Shown here piece after piece: positions 33,544 through 63,782 of a stretch of DNA of 64,000 bases. A program made the translations under genes and the position numbers. This DNA comes from Urbifossiella limnaea (GTDB taxonomy: Bacteria; Planctomycetota; Planctomycetia; Gemmatales; Gemmataceae): NCBI RefSeq assembly GCF_007747215.1, contig NZ_CP036273.1, positions 3,084,322-3,148,321 on the forward strand, given 5' to 3'. Within the stretch, counting starts at the first letter, position 1. Each line of letters opens with the position of its first letter. The notes under the pieces were generated by a model. That model was not told the DNA's origin and searched no databases. It worked only from the letters and a program-made list of their open reading frames with translations.

Positions 33544-33617
33544 GCTCACGCAAAGGCACAAAGCCGCCAAGAACACAGCCCTTAGTGCTCTTGGCGGCTT
33601 TGCACCTTTGCGTGAGC
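33544..33617. repeat. REP/MITE-like inverted repeat between convergent genes
   Basis: Arms of 33 bases (33544-33576 and 33585-33617) match at 30 of 33 positions around an 8-base loop. The arms contain the GCAAAGGC-CAAAGCCGCCAAG unit, so this is likely one copy of a dispersed palindromic repeat. It sits 7 bases from the end of the beta-propeller gene at 33625 and may also end transcripts from both sides. Confidence 0.65.
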
Positions 33618-33624
33618 CGCTTCT

Positions 33625-34659
33625 TCACTCTTTCGGCGGCGTGAAGTCCGCGATGTAAAGCTGTGTCGGGCTACGGCCGTCGCGGCTGGTGGTCCACATC
33701 ACTTTCGTGTAGTCCGGGCTGAACACCGGCAGCACGTCCTGCCCCGGGGCGTGCGTGATGCGGGTCGTCTTCCCCGTCTCGACGTTCATCCAGTACAGGT
33801 CGTAGTTCGGCCGCGCGAGTTCGTTCGAGTGGTCGGCCGCCGTGTAAATGATGTGCTTGCCGTCCTTGTACCAGTACGGCGCCCAGTACACCCACTTGTC
33901 GTCACTGGTCAACGCCTTTTCGCCGGTGCCGTCGGCGTTGATGACGAACAGCTGGAGCCGGTCCTTTTCCTTGCGGTCGGCGCGAAACACCACCTTCGTG
34001 GCGTCCGGGCTGAAGAACGGGCCGCCGTTGTAACAGTTCGCAACGTTCGTCAGTTGTTTCGCGCCCGTGCCGTCGGCGTTCATCGTGAACAGCTGCACGT
34101 TCCCCGCTGTGCCGGCGCTGTAGACGAGCTTCTTGCCGTCGGCCGAGTAGCTCCCTTCGGCGGTGTATACTTTCGAGTCTGGCGTCAGGCACTTCAGGTC
34201 GGTACCGTCCGGGTTGGCCTCGTAAATCTTCATGAACGGGTCGAAGTCCCAGGCGTATCGTCGGCGGACGTTGTTCTTCTTGTCCTGCTCGCGCTGCACG
34301 AACTCGGCGATCTGGTGCTTCTTCGCGTCCGGGTCTTCGTGGCTGCTGGCGAAGATGACCCGCTTCCCGTCCGGGCGGAAGTAGGCGCACGTGGTGCGGC
34401 CCACGCCGGGGCTGATGCGGCGGCGGTTCCCCGTCGCCAGGTCCTGCACGAAAATCTGGTAAAACGGGTTCCCTGCGTCGCTCTCCTCGGCCTGGTAGAT
34501 GACCTGCTTGCCGTCCGGCGAGAAGTACCCCTCGCCGGCGCGGACGAAGTTGCTCGTCACCTGCTTGATGTTCTTCAGGTACGGCGACTCGGCCATCTGC
34601 CAGTCCGCGGCCGGCGGCTGGCCGGGGGCGAACGTCAGTGCCAGAACCAAAGGCGTCAT
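33625..34659 (-). CDS. TolB/WD40-like beta-propeller protein
   Basis: A 344-residue protein built of PD40-type blades: 'GYFSPDGKQVIYQAEE', 'AYFRPDGKRVIFASS', 'SYSADGKKLVYSAG', 'PFFSPDATKVVFRADR', 'PVFSPDYTKVMWTTS', with 'MNADGTG' and 'INADGTGEKAL' links, as in TolB and in S9 peptidase propellers. The start at 34659 gives a short hydrophobic N-terminus ('MTPLVLALTFAPGQPPAA') that may be a signal peptide. No protease domain follows, so this is a stand-alone propeller. Partner unknown. Confidence 0.82.
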   Translation of the reverse strand: MTPLVLALTFAPGQPPAADWQMAESPYLKNIKQVTSNFVRAGEGYFSPDGKQVIYQAEESDAGNPFYQIFVQDLATGNRRRISPGVGRTTCAYFRPDGKRVIFASSHEDPDAKKHQIAEFVQREQDKKNNVRRRYAWDFDPFMKIYEANPDGTDLKCLTPDSKVYTAEGSYSADGKKLVYSAGTAGNVQLFTMNADGTGAKQLTNVANCYNGGPFFSPDATKVVFRADRKEKDRLQLFVINADGTGEKALTSDDKWVYWAPYWYKDGKHIIYTAADHSNELARPNYDLYWMNVETGKTTRITHAPGQDVLPVFSPDYTKVMWTTSRDGRSPTQLYIADFTPPKE

Positions 34660-36853: not shown

Positions 36854-36927
36854 CGGGGCGTAGCGCAGTCTGGTAGCGCGCCTGCCTTGGGAGCAGGAGG
36901 CCGTCGGTTCAAATCCGGCCGCCCCGA
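36854..36927 (+). tRNA. tRNA-Pro (anticodon UGG)
   Basis: A 74-base cloverleaf: acceptor stem CGGGGCG/CGCCCCG, anticodon stem CCTGC/GCAGG around the loop CTTGGGA with anticodon TGG at 36888-36890, T arm GTCGG-TTCAAAT-CCGGC, discriminator A at 36927. CCA is not encoded. The 3' part from the anticodon arm onward (36884-36929) is repeated exactly at 63737-63782, so this tRNA is the integration site of the following element and remains intact. Confidence 0.95.
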
Positions 36928-36929
36928 CT
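36884..36929 (+). repeat. Left attachment site (attL), 46-bp direct repeat
   Basis: Exact 46-base repeat of 63737-63782, running from the anticodon stem of tRNA-Pro to two bases past its 3' end. This is the usual core for tyrosine integrases that use tRNA 3' halves. The integrase gene begins 124 bases further inward. Confidence 0.92.
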
Positions 36930-37014
36930 CGGTTGGTCAGTGACGATTGCCTTGCAGCCGAAGCGTTTTTCGCTTACCCCAGCTTCCGCTGGGTGCGGCT
37001 TCCGAACCAAGCGA

Positions 37015-37036
37015 ACTGTGGAATCATTCCACAATC
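37015..37036. promoter_or_regulatory. Possible integrase/excisionase arm sites near attL
   Basis: ACTGTGGAA at 37015-37023 and TTCCACAATC at 37027-37036 form an inverted pair upstream of the integrase start. Both words recur at the other end of the element (63601-63619), adjacent and in swapped order. Shared short words just inside both ends are what arm-type sites would look like; they may also regulate the integrase gene. Confidence 0.5.
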
Positions 37037-37052
37037 GCATCGGAGCCCGAGC

Positions 37053-38249
37053 GTGAACCGTAATCCCTTCCCGACGTACGTCCTTCACAAGCAGTCCGGC
37101 CGCGGCCGCGTCATCTGGTACGACGCCGCCGGCAACCGGCAGCAGAGACTCCTTCCCGGGCTGTTCAACTCGCCTGAATCTCGGACCGCGTTCGTCCGCT
37201 TCCAGCTCGAACTGGAAGTCTCTCCGACCGCTGCCGTGGCGACCCGCGAGGGCCTCACCGTCGCGGAAGTGTTGGCCGCCTTCCTCGAACATGCCAAGCA
37301 GCACTACCGCCACCCGGACGGCACGCCGACCAGTGAAGTGAGCGTGCTCAAGGGCGTGATCCGGGCGGTGCGCGAGCTGCACGCCGAAACCCCCGCTGCC
37401 GAGTTCGGGCCGCTGGCGCTAAAGACCGCTCGGCAGCTGTGGGTCAACGAGGGGCTCGCCCGCACAGGCTGCAACCGCCGGGTGCGAATCGTCCGCCGCA
37501 TCTTCAAGTGGGCGGTCTCCGAGGAACTGATCCCGCCCGCCGTCTACCAGAGGCTCGCCGCCGTCGCCGCGCTCCAGCGCGGGCGAACCGCGGCGCCCGA
37601 CCTCGACCCTGTCCGGCCGGTCGAGGAGAACGTCGTCGATGCGACGCTCCCGTACCTCAACCGATTCGTTCGCGGGCTCGTCGAGTTCCAGCGGTTGACG
37701 GGTTGTCGGCCGGGCGAGGCCTGCCGGGTCCGCCGGACCGACATCGACACGGGGGGCGAGGTGTGGCTGTATACGCCGCGGCGCCACAAGAATTCCCACC
37801 GCGGCAAGTCCCGAGTTGTAGCCATCGGGCCGAAGGCGCAGGCGCTTCTGCGGGAATTCTTCGTCCCCAATCTCGACGCCCCGCTGTTCAGCCCGATGCG
37901 GGCCACTGAGGAGGTGCGGGCCGCTCGGGCCGCCGCCCGGAAGACGCCCCGCTGGCCGTCGCACCTGGCCCGCAACGCGGCCAAGCGGGTTAAGCTCCCG
38001 AAGCGTACTCCGAAGGACGCGTACGACGCGACGAGTTACGCACGGGCCGTCAGAAAGGCCGCGATCAAGGCCGGCGTGCCCCACTGGCACCCGAACCAGT
38101 TACGGCACAGCTACGCCACCAAGGCCCGGAAGATGTTTTCGCTGGAGCACGCCGGAGCTGCCCTCGGGCACTCGAAGATGAGCGTCACCGAGGTCTACGC
38201 CGAGCGGGACGGGGCACTCGCCGCGACGGTTGCCGCGAAGATCGGGTAA
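37053..38249 (+). CDS. int: Tyrosine recombinase (integrase)
   Basis: Site-specific recombinase of 398 residues that would insert and excise the element at tRNA-Pro. The N-terminal part holds an Arg/Lys-rich arm-binding region and a SAM-like core-binding domain ('VAEVLAAFLEHAKQHYRH', 'ALKTARQLWVNEGLARTGC'). The catalytic domain shows the first Arg in 'TGCRPGEACRVR', a basic beta hairpin 'RRHKNSHRGKSRVV', H-x-x-R in 'HPNQLRHSYAT', the late His in 'GAALGHSKMS', and the nucleophile Tyr in 'VTEVYAERD'. All five residues appear intact. GTG 37053 was chosen over 36933, which lies inside a spacer next to attL. Confidence 0.92.
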   Translation: MNRNPFPTYVLHKQSGRGRVIWYDAAGNRQQRLLPGLFNSPESRTAFVRFQLELEVSPTAAVATREGLTVAEVLAAFLEHAKQHYRHPDGTPTSEVSVLKGVIRAVRELHAETPAAEFGPLALKTARQLWVNEGLARTGCNRRVRIVRRIFKWAVSEELIPPAVYQRLAAVAALQRGRTAAPDLDPVRPVEENVVDATLPYLNRFVRGLVEFQRLTGCRPGEACRVRRTDIDTGGEVWLYTPRRHKNSHRGKSRVVAIGPKAQALLREFFVPNLDAPLFSPMRATEEVRAARAAARKTPRWPSHLARNAAKRVKLPKRTPKDAYDATSYARAVRKAAIKAGVPHWHPNQLRHSYATKARKMFSLEHAGAALGHSKMSVTEVYAERDGALAATVAAKIG

Positions 38250-48000: not shown

Positions 48001-48288
48001 ATGGCGGGCAAGCGGAAGAGCCACTCGGCGGCGTTCAAGGCTCAGGTCGCCCTGGCGGCGGTCAAGGGTGACAAGACCATCAACGAACTGGCGTCCCACT
48101 ACGGCGTCCACCCGACGTTGATCCACGGGTGGAAGAAGCAACTCCTGGCCGGGGTCGAGGCCGTGTTCGCCTCGGGAGCCAAGACCACCGGACCCCCGGA
48201 GGACAAGACGGCCGAGCTGTTCGAGCAGATCGGGCGACTCAAGGTCGAACTCGACTGGGTGAAAAAAAAATCTGCCCCCCTCGGCTGA
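48001..48288 (+). CDS. IS3-family OrfA (helix-turn-helix subunit)
   Basis: A 95-residue DNA-binding part of the IS3 transposase: 'KSHSAAFKAQVALAAVKGDK', 'INELASHYGVHPTLIHGWKK' is the helix-turn-helix. A leucine-zipper-like helix follows ('DKTAELFEQIGRLKVELDWV'). It ends in KKK encoded by nine A (48262-48270). The matching OrfB frame is one base ahead, so making OrfAB needs a +1 shift or a lost A in the transcript. AGGAAAGGGG lies upstream of the ATG. Confidence 0.88.
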   Translation: MAGKRKSHSAAFKAQVALAAVKGDKTINELASHYGVHPTLIHGWKKQLLAGVEAVFASGAKTTGPPEDKTAELFEQIGRLKVELDWVKKKSAPLG

Positions 48289-48301
48289 CGCCCGGCGGGC
48301 G

Positions 48302-49120
48302 TTGATCGACGAGGATCACCCCGAGCTGAGCATCCGCCGGCAGTGCGAGTTGGTCGGTCTGAACCGCTCGACCCGGTACTACGAGCCGACCCCGGAGACG
48401 CCCGAGAACCTGGAGTTGATGCGGCTCATCGACCAGGAGTACACGGCCCACCCGTTCTTCGGGAGCCGAAAGATCACGCAGTGGCTCATCGGCCGGGGCC
48501 ACGAGGTGAACCGCAAGCGGGTGCGGCGGCTGATGCGGGTGATGGGGCTGGAGGCCATCTACCCCAAGCCGAAACTGTCGCTGGCAGGCCGTGGGCACAA
48601 GGTCTACCCGTACCTGCTGAGGGGCGTGGCGGTCGAGCGGGTCAACCAGGTGTGGAGTGCCGACATCACCTACGTGCCGCTGCCGGGTGGGTTCATGTAC
48701 CTGGCGGCGACGATCGACTGGTTCAGCCGGTACGTGGTCGCCTGGCGGCTGTCCAACACGCTCGACGGGGCGTTCTGCCAGGAGATGCTGGAGGAGGCGT
48801 TGGGCCGGGGCAGACCGGAGGTGTTCAACACGGACCAGGGGGTGCAGTTCACGGCCGGTGCGTGGACCGGGCGGCTGGAGCGGGCCGGGGTGGCGGTGAG
48901 CATGGACGGTCGGGGGCGGTGCCTGGACAACGTGTTCGTCGAGCGGCTGTGGCGGAGCGTGAAGTACGAGGACGTGTACCTGAAGGGGTACGAGCGGGTG
49001 CCGGAGTTGGAGGGCGGGCTGCGGGCGTACTTCGGGTTCTACAACACCGAGCGGCGGCACCAGTCCCTGGACTACCGCACCCCGGCCGAGGTGTACGGCG
49101 TCGGGGCCAAGACGGCCTGA
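48302..49120 (+). CDS. IS3-family OrfB (DDE catalytic subunit)
   Basis: Catalytic half of the IS3 transposase, 272 residues if started at TTG 48302. In the natural fusion it would continue from the A9 run through 'NLPPSADARRALIDEDHPEL'. Catalytic residues are intact: Asp in 'VWSADITYVPLPGG', Asp in 'EVFNTDQGVQFTA', Glu in 'CLDNVFVERLWRSVKYEDVY'. Ends 'SLDYRTPAEVYGVGAKTA'. Probably still able to move. Confidence 0.88.
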   Translation: MIDEDHPELSIRRQCELVGLNRSTRYYEPTPETPENLELMRLIDQEYTAHPFFGSRKITQWLIGRGHEVNRKRVRRLMRVMGLEAIYPKPKLSLAGRGHKVYPYLLRGVAVERVNQVWSADITYVPLPGGFMYLAATIDWFSRYVVAWRLSNTLDGAFCQEMLEEALGRGRPEVFNTDQGVQFTAGAWTGRLERAGVAVSMDGRGRCLDNVFVERLWRSVKYEDVYLKGYERVPELEGGLRAYFGFYNTERRHQSLDYRTPAEVYGVGAKTA

Positions 49121-49172
49121 CGAAACAGTAGCGAAGGATCGCCACTTTTTGGTCTAGACAATGGGGTCCACT

Positions 49173-50108
49173 GTACCGCTCGCCGGTACGGATCGGGAAA
49201 TTCTGCTGCACCTCCTTCCGCTCGCTGCCGCCGAACGGCGGGTTCGCCAGCACCACGTCGAACCGGTCCTTGTCCTGCACGTCGGCGACGTTCTCGCTCA
49301 GCGTGTTCGTGTGGGCGATGTTCGGCGCCTCGATCCCGTGCAGGATCATGTTCATGATCCCGATGACGTAGGCGAGCGGCTTCTTCTCCTTGCCGTAGAA
49401 CGTCTTCTCCTGGAGCGTCTTCACGTCCTTCGTCGTCAGGTTAGGCTTCGCCCGCAGGTACTCGAACGCCTCGCACAAGAACCCCGCCGACCCGACCGCC
49501 CCGTCGTAGACGCGCTCGCCGATCTTCGGCTTCACGACCCGCACGACGGCGCGGATGAGCGGGCGCGGCGTGTAGTACTCGCCGCCGTTCCGCCCGGCGT
49601 TGCCCATGTTCTTGATCTTGGCTTCGTACAGGTGGCTCAGCTCGTGCTTCTCGGTCTGCGACCGGAACCGCAGCTCGTCGATGTGGTCGATGATGTCGCG
49701 GAGGTTGTGCCCGCTCTGGATCTTGTTTTTGATCTCGCCGAAGATCTCGCCGATCTTGTACTCGATGGTGTTCGGCCCGCTCGCCTTCTGCTTGAAGTCG
49801 TGCAGGTACGGGAACAGCTTCTGGTTCACGAAGTCCCGCAGGTCGTCGCCGCCGAGCGCCTTGTTGTGGTCGATCTGCCCGCCCTTGTCCTTCGGCGCGG
49901 CCCAACTCTCCCAGCGGTACGGCTTGTCGAGGATGAAGGCGTACTTCTTGCCCTCCAGCGCCGCCTCGTCCGCCCGGTCCTGTTCCAGCCCGTAGAGGTA
50001 CTTCAGGAAGAGGAGCCACGACGTTTGCTCGGTGTAGTCGAGCTCGGTCGTGCAGCCGGCTTCTTTCCGAAGCGCGTCGTCGATGTTCTTGAACGCCTGC
50101 TCGAACAT
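49173..50108 (-). pseudogene. hsdM: Type I restriction-modification methyltransferase HsdM, truncated by IS3
   Basis: The first 312 codons of an N6-adenine DNA methyltransferase subunit. Seen: N-terminal helical domain 'IDDALRKEAGCTTELDYTEQ' with 'WLLFLKYLYGLEQ', 'GRNGGEYYTPRPLIRAVVRV', SAM-binding 'VYDGAVGSAGFLCEAFEYLR' and the catalytic N-P-P-F in 'DVVLANPPFGGSERKEV'. The chain is interrupted right after 'NFPIRTGERY' by the IS3 element; the usual family length is near 500 residues. No hsdS or hsdR gene is present. ATG 50108 is the start. It is a relic, not a working defence system. Confidence 0.88.
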
Positions 50109-50396
50109 GGGGCGAACCCGGTGTGGTCGCGTGGCCGTCGCGGCGCCGGGCACACCCAGTCGCGCCTGCTTGAATCTGTCGCGGGGAAGTAGTTTAGTCC
50201 AACCGCGCCGACCCTGAAAGGTGCGAAGTGGGCGCTTCGCAGGGGAACCTGACACCCGATAGGTACGGCGACCACCGACCCGCGGGTGGCAGCTGTTCGG
50301 CCACCGGCTCCGGGTGGAGCGGTAGCCAGGAGAGGGTCGTAACCGGCCTTCCGGGTGCTACCGTTCGGGTGTACACTACCCATTCAACCGGTTGAC

Positions 50397-51973: not shown

Positions 51974-52330
51974 ATGGCCGATGGCGTTTCCGAAGTTCCA
52001 CTCGTCCTGACCGAGATCCGGGCCGGCGGGGGGATGTCCCTGTCCGGCGTCGGCCGTCAGTTCCCCGGCCACCGGGGCGGGCCGGCCGTCGATCCGAGCA
52101 CAGTTTTCAGGTGGGCAACGAAGGGGCTCAACCTCGCCGGGCGAACCGTCAAGTTGGAGGCCGTCCGCGTCGGCCACAGGTGGCTAACTTCTTCCCAGGC
52201 CGTGGCCCGGTTCGTCGCCGCACTGACCCCTGTTGACCCGCCGCCGGCCCCAGCGCCGATCGCCCCAACCACCGACCCGGCCCGCCGGGCGAAGGCCGCA
52301 ATCAAGACGCTGATCGACCAGGGTGCGTGA
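51974..52330 (+). CDS. DUF1580 excisionase-like DNA-binding protein
   Basis: A 118-residue protein of the DUF1580 type, typical of planctomycete mobile elements. It has the MerR/excisionase-like winged helix: 'MSLSGVGRQFPGHRG', 'VDPSTVFRWATKGLNLAGR', 'LEAVRVGHRWLTSSQAVARF', then a Pro/Ala tail. It probably acts as recombination directionality factor or as regulator of the primase gene, which begins 70 bases after its end. The start ATG 51974 is preceded by GGGAGG at a suitable distance. Confidence 0.78.
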   Translation: MADGVSEVPLVLTEIRAGGGMSLSGVGRQFPGHRGGPAVDPSTVFRWATKGLNLAGRTVKLEAVRVGHRWLTSSQAVARFVAALTPVDPPPAPAPIAPTTDPARRAKAAIKTLIDQGA

Positions 52331-52400
52331 AGACGCCCGGCAGCGCGAACTGCCGGGCGCGAGGAGCGTGAACCCACCATCAGACCATAGGACCAACCGC

Positions 52401-54941
52401 ATGATACCCCCGAATCGTCCGGGTGACAACCCGGTGTCACTGACGCCCGGCCACCGCGCCGACCTCGCGAAGAGCGGGCTGACCGACGCCACCATCATCG
52501 CCGCGGGCCTCCACAGCATCCTCGACAGCTCGCGGGTGCGGGAACTGCTGGGCGACTACCTGAGCCGCACGACCGCGAACAAGATGGGCGCGTGCCTGGC
52601 GTTCCCGTACCTCGACGCCGCCGGCGAGCCGATGACGTTCGCCAACGGCGACGGGACGCAACACCCCTTCGTGCGGCTGAAGCCGTCGGCGCCGCGGACG
52701 GACAAGAAGAACAAGGACCGCAAGATCAAGTACGAGTCGCCGGCGGCCGGGCCGTGCCGCGCGTACCTCCCGCCGTGGACGCGGGCCGCGCTCGCGGACC
52801 CGACCGTCGCCCTTCTCATCACCGAGGGTGAAAAAAAGGCCCTCTGCGCCGACCAGCACGGGCTCCCGTGCGTCGGGCTCGGCGGGGTGTGGGCGTGGCA
52901 GAAGAAGCGAGACCGCGACGCCGACGGCAAGGGGACCGGGCCGCGCGAGTTGATCCCCGACCTGGACGGCGTCGCGTGGCCGGGGCGGAAGGTGTTCATC
53001 ACCTTCGACTCGGATCTGACCGACAAGCTCGACGTGCAGTGGGCCGAGTACCACCTCGCCGACGTGCTGCGCCAGTGCGGGGCCGACGTCCGGGTCGTCC
53101 GACTGCCGGCCGAACCCGACGGCTCGAAGAACGGGCTGGACGATTACCTCGTCCTCCACGGCCCCGACGAGCTGCGGAAGCTCGTCGCTGCCGCGGTGGC
53201 GCCGGCGCGGCCTACCGGCGGCGACGACCGCCCCAAGATCATCATCGGGACCGACCAGTACCGGGTGAATGCCGAGGCGATCGCCGCCCTTGCCGCCGGC
53301 GCCAACGTGTACCAGCGCGGGAACATGCTGGTGCGGGCCGTGCGGACGGAGACCGACCCGGACCCGAACGCCGTCGTCCGCCGGCCGCCGGGCTCGCCGG
53401 TGGTGCGTCCGTTGCCCCCGCCGCTGCTGCGGGAGTTGTTCACCCGCTGCGCCCGCTGGGTGCAGCTAAGGGGCAAACCGGAGAAACAAGAGGAAGTCCC
53501 CGCCCATCCGCCGGAGTGGTGCGTGTCCGCCGTCCACGTCCGGGAGCGGTGGCCGGGCATCCGCCACCTCGAGGCCGTCGTCGATCACCCGGTGATCCTG
53601 CGTGACGGCACGATCCTCGGAGCAAACGGGTACGACCCGCGGTCGCAGCTGCTGGTGTCGGTGCCGGCCGGCCTGAGGATCACCGTCCCCGATCGGCCGA
53701 CCCCTGCGGACTTGGCCGCCGCCGTCGCCGCCATCGACGACGTGATCCAGAACTTCCCGTTCGAGAAGCCCGAACACCGGGCCGCGTGGTTCGCCGGTCT
53801 GCTGACCCCGCTGGCGTGGTTCGCGTTCGACGGCCCCGCCCCGCTCCTCCTGATCGACGGCAACACCCGCGGCTGCGGCAAGGGGCTGCTGGCGGACGTG
53901 ATCGCGCTGATCGTCACCGGCCGGCGGTTCCCGGTCATGTCGTACACCGCCGACAAGGAAGAGTTGCGGAAGAAGATCACGTCCTTGGCGATGGAGGGCG
54001 AGCGGCTGGTCCTGCTCGACAACCTGGCCGGCGCGGTCGGCAACGACGTGCTGGACATGGCGCTGACCGCCGACCGGTGGAAGGACCGGGTGCTGGGTGT
54101 CAACAAGGTGTTCGACGGCCCGCTGAACGTCGCGTGGTACGCCACCGGCAACAACGTCCAGCTCCACGCCGACACGTCCCGTCGGTGTTCCCACTGCCGC
54201 ATCGAAACGCAGCACGAACGCCCCGAGCTGCGCGACGACGTGAAGTACAAGGACCTGCGGGCCCACGTCCGCGAGTACCGCGGCCCGCTGCTGTCCGCCG
54301 CCCTCACTATCCTCCGGGGGTGGTTCGCCGCCGGGACGCCCCGCCACAACCTCGCCCCGTGGGGGTCGTTCGAGGGGTGGTCCGGCGTCGTCCGCGAGGC
54401 GGTGGTGTTCGCCGGGTTGCCCGACCCGGGCGAGACCCGGCTCGCGTTGCAGACGACCGCCGACCGCGACGCGATGACGATGTCCGCCATGATCGACGCG
54501 ATGGAGCGGATGGACCCCGACCGCAAGGGGCTGACGGCCGCCGGCATCATCGACGCCGTACGCAAGCCGAGCGACCGCCCGCCCGAGTGGTTCGAGGACC
54601 TCAAGAGCGCGGTCGAGGAGCTCTGCGGCAAGCTGGACGGCCGCGTCCTGGGGTATCGGTTCCGGGCGTTCGCCCGCCGCAACTTCGGCGGGAGGATGAT
54701 CGACCGCGCCCCGGGCGTCAGCTCCAACAACTCGGCCCGGTGGATTGTCAAGTCCGTTGGCGGGCCAGCGCGGGCCGGATCATCACCAGTATCACCAGCA
54801 TCACCAGCACCGGCCCCGACTGGTGATGCTGGTGATACTGGTGATGATCCGGCCCAACCGGGGAACGCGAAGGGCGCGAAGCCGACCCGCCGCCGGTTCA
54901 AGAACGACGACCGCGAGCACGACCAGCGGGGGGCGAAATGA
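52401..54941 (+). CDS. Primase-helicase (Toprim/DUF3854 plus P-loop ATPase)
   Basis: An 846-residue replication protein of phage/plasmid type. The N-terminal third has a DUF3854 Toprim-like domain: 'VALLITEGEKKALCADQHG' (about residue 136 on) and 'VFITFDSDLTDKLDVQWAEY' with the acidic D-x-D. The central part is a superfamily III-like ATPase: Walker A in 'LLLIDGNTRGCGKGLLADVI' (about 480-500), Walker B 'ERLVLLDNLAGAVGND', and 'VAWYATGNNVQLHADTSRR' as sensor with arginine finger. The C-terminal tail is low-complexity (S-P and G-D repeats) and is encoded by a perfect 36-bp inverted repeat. Its stop overlaps the next start in ATGA. Likely drives replication of the excised element. Confidence 0.82.
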   Translation: MIPPNRPGDNPVSLTPGHRADLAKSGLTDATIIAAGLHSILDSSRVRELLGDYLSRTTANKMGACLAFPYLDAAGEPMTFANGDGTQHPFVRLKPSAPRTDKKNKDRKIKYESPAAGPCRAYLPPWTRAALADPTVALLITEGEKKALCADQHGLPCVGLGGVWAWQKKRDRDADGKGTGPRELIPDLDGVAWPGRKVFITFDSDLTDKLDVQWAEYHLADVLRQCGADVRVVRLPAEPDGSKNGLDDYLVLHGPDELRKLVAAAVAPARPTGGDDRPKIIIGTDQYRVNAEAIAALAAGANVYQRGNMLVRAVRTETDPDPNAVVRRPPGSPVVRPLPPPLLRELFTRCARWVQLRGKPEKQEEVPAHPPEWCVSAVHVRERWPGIRHLEAVVDHPVILRDGTILGANGYDPRSQLLVSVPAGLRITVPDRPTPADLAAAVAAIDDVIQNFPFEKPEHRAAWFAGLLTPLAWFAFDGPAPLLLIDGNTRGCGKGLLADVIALIVTGRRFPVMSYTADKEELRKKITSLAMEGERLVLLDNLAGAVGNDVLDMALTADRWKDRVLGVNKVFDGPLNVAWYATGNNVQLHADTSRRCSHCRIETQHERPELRDDVKYKDLRAHVREYRGPLLSAALTILRGWFAAGTPRHNLAPWGSFEGWSGVVREAVVFAGLPDPGETRLALQTTADRDAMTMSAMIDAMERMDPDRKGLTAAGIIDAVRKPSDRPPEWFEDLKSAVEELCGKLDGRVLGYRFRAFARRNFGGRMIDRAPGVSSNNSARWIVKSVGGPARAGSSPVSPASPAPAPTGDAGDTGDDPAQPGNAKGAKPTRRRFKNDDREHDQRGAK
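54772..54855. repeat. Perfect 36-bp inverted repeat with 12-base loop
   Basis: Arms 54772-54807 and 54820-54855 are perfectly complementary over 36 bases around a 12-base loop. Each arm contains three 9-base units of ATCACCAG(T/C) or the complement. It lies inside the primase coding region, about 90 bases from its end, where it encodes alternating S-P and G-D residues. It could be an origin-like or primer-loading structure, or a transcript-stabilising hairpin. Confidence 0.85.
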
Positions 54942-55510
54942 CCGCGGTCGCCTTGCTCGAATCGCTGGCCCCGTACCGACCGATCGTCGAGGACGGCGAG
55001 CTCGTGGTTGAGCTCGACCCGCCAGCGGGGTTAGTGGCCCGACTTGAGATCTTGCACACCGGCGTACGGGCAGTCCTGTCCGGCCGGGGGTGGCAGGGCG
55101 GGGCAGCTGTCACCCGCGACCGTCTAACCATCGTGGCTCTCGACCCGGCGAAGCCGATCCCCCCAAGCGTCACGCTCCTGCGGGTCGAAGGCGATTCTAG
55201 CTGGGACAGGGTCCCGGCAAGCGCGAGGAGCGGCGCGCCGGACTTGTTTGTTCAACCGAGGGAGTCGGGACCAACCCGCCTCGGCGGCACGCCGCCCGTC
55301 TGGGACGCGACTGCGGCGATCGCCCTACTGAACGCCGGGGATGATCTCGTCGAGCGGCTCGATGTGTCCGGGAGCGATCCAGCCATCCAGCGCGCTGCCG
55401 AGATGTTTACGATCGCCTACCGGGCTCGCGACCTGGACGGGGTACGGCTCGCGGCCCGTAGGTTCGAAGACGAAGTCCGCCGTGTGGCGGGCCTCGTTGC
55501 GCCAAGCTGA
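54938..55510 (+). CDS. Hypothetical protein coupled to the primase
   Basis: A 190-residue protein whose ATG (54938) sits in the primase stop codon (ATGA), so it is translationally coupled. No known domain. It has 'VVELDPPAGLVARLEILHTG', a W-rich 'SGRGWQGGAAVTRDRLTI' loop and a helical C-terminus ('AAEMFTIAYRARDLDGVRLA', 'RFEDEVRRVAGLVAPS'). Probably a replication or regulation accessory of the element. The N-terminal part resembles small phage proteins, but this is only impression. Confidence 0.55.
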   Translation: MTAVALLESLAPYRPIVEDGELVVELDPPAGLVARLEILHTGVRAVLSGRGWQGGAAVTRDRLTIVALDPAKPIPPSVTLLRVEGDSSWDRVPASARSGAPDLFVQPRESGPTRLGGTPPVWDATAAIALLNAGDDLVERLDVSGSDPAIQRAAEMFTIAYRARDLDGVRLAARRFEDEVRRVAGLVAPS

Positions 55511-63736: not shown

Positions 63737-63782
63737 GCCTTGGGAGCAGGAGGCCGTCGGTTCAAATCCGGCCGCCCCGACT
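63737..63782 (+). repeat. Right attachment site (attR), 46-bp direct repeat
   Basis: Exact copy of 36884-36929, that is, the 3' part of tRNA-Pro without its 5' half. It cannot form a full tRNA and marks the right border of the element. The sequence after it differs from that after the left copy from the next base on. Confidence 0.92.

Follow-up and report, generated by a model that had tools for sequence, protein, structure and literature searches.

The palindrome that ranks first among the short-range inverted repeats of the 64-kb window (the whole stretch of Urbifossiella limnaea DNA analyzed here, 64,000 nt) lies within the last 60 codons of a primase-helicase gene. As judged by sequence comparison, it is probably a cis-acting replication origin, composed of Rep-binding iterons, that belongs to a tRNA-Pro island and, in one Gemmataceae clade, has moved into the coding tail of the presumed initiator. 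Origins of this kind are already known; what is new is the compact variant, embedded in coding sequence and with a 12-bp spacer that is GC-rich. In the literature that we searched, we found no origin of this kind described in the Gemmataceae, and for a mobile island in this family a likely origin can now be proposed together with its initiator.

The palindrome consists of two 36-nt arms that are 100% complementary around a 12-nt loop (Table 1). A previous sequence-only reading of this DNA had described perfect 36-base arms made of 9-base units with a 12-base loop, and its coordinates and pairing proved exact. We resolved each arm into three 9-bp units and, outside them, a flank of 10 bp. The unit is ATCACCAG plus one variable base, repeated with a period of 9, and the outer 10-bp flanks, GGGCCGGATC and GATCCGGCCC, are likewise fully paired. 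As RNA the palindrome folds with -79.5 kcal/mol (z = -11.7) and as DNA with -48.6 (z = -11.1), with 0 of 200 shuffles as good in either case. Genome-wide unit counts were obtained by pattern searches, which placed the doubled tandem unit ATCACCAGN at a single site in the 7.8-Mb genome, the palindrome itself. Across the 397 genomes examined from this class, the full palindromic array was detected at 2 sites (the window and genome G072), both in tails of the same gene family, and the exact array was absent from the viral contigs scanned. The sole match in an Rfam scan was a tRNA. A terminator reading of the palindrome was dropped, as the terminator scan was empty here and the stem is not followed by a T-run. 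Elsewhere in the window, we observed another strong inverted repeat at 33544-33617 (33-nt arms, 91% complementary, 8-nt loop) that adjoins the end, at 33625, of an ORF on the minus strand.

Table 1. Positions in the window of the palindrome, the gene that contains it, neighboring genes, and the island attachment repeats
Feature	Position	Strand	Description or basis
Attachment repeat	36884..36929	+	3' half of tRNA-Pro (TGG)
Tyrosine integrase	36933..38249	+	Adjoins tRNA-Pro
DUF1580 protein	51974..52330	+	Directly upstream of helicase gene; Pfam
Primase-helicase, 872 aa, presumed initiator	52323..54941	+	ORF, Pfam, PHROG primase matches, AlphaFold/Foldseek, hhalign
Left arm	54772..54807	+	Flank GGGCCGGATC, then ATCACCAGT, ATCACCAGC, ATCACCAG
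Spacer, 12 bp	54808..54819	none	83% GC
Right arm	54820..54855	-	CTGGTGAT, GCTGGTGAT, ACTGGTGAT, then flank GATCCGGCCC
Tail motif RRRFxNDDRxHDxRG	54888..54938	+	Codons after the array; translations; in-frame in several compact-clade relatives
190-aa ORF, overlaps helicase stop	54938..55510	+	No family found
Attachment-repeat copy, exact, 46 bp	63737..63782	+	Far island end

The primase-helicase contains a DUF3854 domain (amino acids 157 to 282; Pfam), a D5/SF3-like ATPase, and a C-terminal winged-helix-like region, and its gene overlaps the 190-aa ORF at ATGA. Foldseek searches with the predicted structure (mean pLDDT of 71) matched mpox E5, poxvirus D5, the C-terminal region (CTR) of NrS-1, and the SaPI5 primase-helicase (7ola; E = 1.8e-3), the last with a modest TM-score of ~0.35. 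Because the TM-scores were modest, these matches give the type of enzyme and not its family; the modeled protein is thus predicted to be an SF3/D5-type enzyme. A PDB profile search by sequence returned weak, unrelated matches only, and an NCBIfam search gave no match.

A tyrosine integrase gene follows tRNA-Pro, and the 3' half of this tRNA recurs as an exact copy of 46 bp at 63737-63782, so that the helicase gene is inside a 26.9-kb att-flanked island, the cargo of which includes a methyltransferase, an MFS transporter, a rhodanese, and others. At 48001-49120, IS3-type transposase genes extend over the 3' end of a minus-strand HsdM-like gene (48849-50255), which appears cut by the IS3-type insertion. 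The layout of the island bears on whether the palindrome could be a recombination or integrase arm-type site and not an origin. The arm repeats of phage P4 attP lie close to its crr origin region, and in the relative G001 a break occurs at the array edge, but the att repeats of the island are elsewhere (at 36884 and 63737, 18 and 9 kb off), and homologous arrays adjoin the helicase on plasmids. We rejected an att or integrase arm site on the position of the att repeats, and an arm-type function is extremely improbable.

Codon usage in the arms supports the earlier claim that coding constraint cannot explain them. G or C occupies the third position in only 3 of the 22 arm codons (A or T in the other 19), as opposed to a GC3 of 93% elsewhere in the gene, and GC3 over 17 coding arrays showed the same kind of difference (arms, 0.43 versus 0.79). 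These values also address the proposal that a functional tripeptide-repeat protein tail (SPA/GDA) is what matters and that the palindrome is a by-product. The frame does remain open through the array, with a C-terminal motif after it. However, the peptides vary among relatives (SPA, HHA, PHT, TPS/VDG, and RIP), the codon third positions disregard host bias, and arrays also occur outside coding sequence, which makes this proposal highly improbable.

Comparison of the window with its nearest array, L029, revealed two differences per arm, all of which are paired changes. Compensating changes had been proposed as a check for selection on structure, and these differences suggest selection for exact hairpin pairing, but template-switch correction could give the same pattern. 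The same prior reading considered that relatives with the same protein tail but no inverted repeat, or with arms diverging independently, would speak against a selected structure, and here the outcome was mixed. L081 has a similar tail with an eroded array, as does L080, another close relative that kept its protein tail, and this erosion counts against the origin reading. L032, L083, and L084 keep the units without exact arm pairing. In coding arrays, identity was 0.94 for paired arms versus 0.81 for arms shifted by one unit. That units outlast exact pairing and that shifted-arm identity is high favors a model, drawn from these alignments, in which unit recognition would come first and hairpin pairing second.

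In the same-genus relative G001, the helicase body on contig C17 (L028; 94% identical) runs up to the left edge of the array, where it passes into other sequence, whereas the array and C-terminal motif (L029) are on a separate contig, C646, with no helicase body found beside them. Contig C17 also carries a decayed array copy elsewhere, away from the helicase. The split at the palindrome represents either a rearrangement or a misassembly. Some of these features could be expected of a selfish or mutational palindrome without function, either a mobile repeat or arms matched by template switching: the arms are exact, the paired changes between the window and L029 could stem from strand-switch correction, and the decayed copy lies away from the helicase. 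Against this interpretation, both sites of the array among the class genomes are in the same gene tail, and across phyla this position is occupied by arrays of other units. We consider a palindrome without function very unlikely, although strand-switch correction may add to arm exactness.

Recurrence of arrays 3' of the helicase domain argues for the origin reading. We detected helicase homologues in 16 of 59 relatives by protein query; a profile detected them in 37 of 95 genomes of the family, and more were found in Phycisphaerae, viral contigs, plasmids, and phages. The loci compared numbered 74 after removal of redundancy; at each, the top-scoring inverted repeat in the 700 nt that follow the C-terminal domain of the helicase was compared with shuffles, with a cutoff above the 99th percentile and with the 74 segments just upstream as controls. 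The inverted-repeat score was used since a simple 9-mer count was too noisy in GC-rich DNA. A significant inverted repeat followed the C-terminal domain at 50 of 74 loci, some of which are probably ordinary terminators (L087, with its best match at +598, and L108), versus 0 of 74 upstream controls. Approximately one-third of the 74 homologues had no detectable array within 700 nt, which counts against an origin.

The majority of the 50 inverted repeats are composed of tandem units of 8 to 11 nt in inverted sets. The tandem period was 9 in 16 of 17 coding arrays and mostly 8 to 12 in other arrays. Unit sequence varies across loci, as seen for CATCTCCTG (L031), GATGGTGTC (L038), GTGGGTTTA (Azospirillum), AGGTAGGGAT (pA32H2), and TTCCCTACGTT (L093), and different unit sequences occur at the same place across phyla, whereas the position, the inverted arrangement, and a period close to 9 are constant. 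In plasmids and distant relatives, the array comes after the stop codon, on both sides of a spacer of 40 to 130 bp. Inverted units directly follow the helicase stop codon on plasmids pA32H2, pMNOD06, pA17P3, pCM32, and pMt-1, and the Azospirillum locus has a perfect 31-bp array directly after this stop codon.

We also observed several other arrangements among homologues. L079 and L101 contain at least three repeated ~100-nt blocks, each with one half-array of GGTGGACATGGTGGCGATGGTGGACATGTTTCCGCCC or near, all in one orientation and not inverted. The distant paralogues L093, L094, L102, and L107 have downstream imperfect palindromes with arms of ~90 to 105 nt, and each arm also holds a short facing unit pair. 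An 86-nt inverted repeat with a loop of 213 lies downstream of a distant helicase homologue on the archaeal Methanothrix plasmid pGP6 (L146). Finally, the genome that contains the window encodes another related helicase (L032; C1 near 6.75 Mb), whose coding array is built from a different unit, of the CATCTCCAC type; this match contains an in-frame TGA.

The positions of the homologous arrays are also informative about the suggestion in the sequence-only reading that a hairpin sets the ratio of primase to the downstream protein. An mRNA hairpin controlling translational coupling or stability of the helicase and downstream ORF would be consistent with the very stable RNA fold and with the overlap of the downstream ORF and the helicase stop codon. 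However, such control is unsupported because homologous arrays follow stop codons with spacers of 50 to 230 nt. Furthermore, the arms are tandemly repeated, which a hairpin does not need, three loci (L032, L083, and L084) lose exact pairing as described above, and a homologue, RepA of pWTY27, binds DNA repeats. We therefore view an mRNA hairpin as very unlikely.

Arrays were found in two layouts. Most loci have a spaced layout, usually located past the stop codon, with G-rich units first and a spacer of ~40 to 230 bp that in many cases has a higher AT content than the adjoining DNA. In contrast, the compact layout of the window's clade has C-rich units first and a GC-rich spacer of 10 to 41 bp within the coding tail. 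In a tree of the helicases, one 18-row branch (support of 84), nested among spaced, mostly non-coding rows, held 13 of the 14 compact rows (compact status of L033, L080, and L083 being assigned by eye); the sole compact row outside this branch was L036, which is a partial sequence and has a long branch. Because compact arrays form one clade nested among spaced ones, the coding-embedded form looks derived, as far as the tree indicates. Selection on the DNA, in line with an origin, is also indicated by L030, which keeps a perfect 29-bp repeat though a stop codon within the left arm closes its frame, and by L087, in which the array is after the stop codon. Two features of the compact type count against an origin: unit orientation is flipped relative to the spaced type, and no compact-type array was found on free plasmids.

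Together, these findings lead us to propose a model for the window in which protein binding, melting, priming, excised-island replication, and any cruciform role are inferred. In the window's clade, the origin would have left its usual site past the stop codon for the coding tail, and its spacer would have become shorter. The primase-helicase may bind the 9-bp units through its C-terminal domain, and the two opposed sets of three units may each load a helicase ring, so that the two rings point in opposite directions. The rings would then melt the DNA, with cruciform formation being one possibility for melting the 12-bp GC-rich spacer, and the fused primase domain would prime the excised circle so that the excised island could replicate from the palindrome. 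A bolder idea, which we consider possible but doubtful, is that the initiator gene holds its own origin as a compact hairpin that opens by cruciform extrusion and not through an AT-rich spacer, with units that change with the initiator. If true, many mutually compatible replicons could exist in one bacterial family, with two in this genome (the window and L032). The helicase tail would represent a natural case of an origin imposing sequence on protein-coding DNA, and a search for inverted 9-nt units where D5/SF3 primase-helicase genes end may provide a simple origin predictor for many uncharacterized elements.

Comparison with known systems links plasmid, satellite, and island origins through one layout with an ever-changing repeat sequence. 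Homologues give good support to the earlier suggestion of an origin structure beside its own replication protein, and for one of them, from the Streptomyces plasmid pWTY27, genetics and footprinting have been published. Replication of pWTY27 requires repA, repB, and 300 bp directly 3' of repA, RepA footprints this region, and its authors proposed that RepA may recognize a long stem-loop (PMC3583192). When we placed the published footprint on the sequence record, it covered GTGGGAAGG GTGGGAACC, a spacer, and GGTTCCCAC TGTTCCCAC, which are inverted sets of 9-nt units. The window helicase is homologous along the length of RepA, including the helicase and C-terminal domain (hhalign probability of 100%, E = 2.3e-41 over 444 columns; tblastn E = 2e-31), and in both systems inverted ~9-nt units are on the 3' side of the initiator domain. 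Unlike the coding array of the window with its 12-bp spacer, the pWTY27 origin is non-coding, after the stop codon, with a spacer of ~60 nt and outer repeat sets, and its primase is encoded by a separate gene, repB, whereas the DUF3854 primase domain of the window is fused to the helicase.

Similarities extend to less closely matching systems. Plasmid pRN1 has an essential stem-loop 3' of its primase-SF3-helicase gene, and a stem mutant was rescued by restored symmetry (PMC4234260). The window resembles pRN1 in having a single large stem-loop on the 3' side of a gene for a primase, SF3 helicase, and winged helix, and the pRN1 family, as here, combines low sequence conservation with high structural conservation of the origin (PMC4234260). 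However, pRN1 is described as without iterons and with a 58-nt loop and an archaeo-eukaryal primase (PMC4234260), in contrast to the 9-bp units and 12-bp loop of the window, and its stem-loop is outside the gene rather than inside it. In PICI origins, which directly adjoin the 3' side of rep, an AT-rich region is flanked by two sets of iterons (PMC6092414). The window shares with PICIs and SaPIs an integrated island, a (here putative) origin on the 3' side of rep, and two unit sets, but the PICI sets come after the gene, whereas the window array is coding and its spacer is GC-rich. We located phage P4 crr 46 nt 3' of alpha, with inverted type 1 repeats GGTGAACA at 9-nt spacing in both orientations. 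No homology of the window initiator to P4 alpha was detected (hhalign probability of 1.6%). P4 crr is non-coding for alpha, has a 35-bp AT-rich spacer, and is accompanied by a second ori elsewhere; the absence from the window array of the AT-rich spacer found in PICI and P4 origins counts against the origin reading. As in P4 crr, the window has inverted repeats with a GGTGA core at 9-nt spacing just 3' of a primase-helicase initiator domain.
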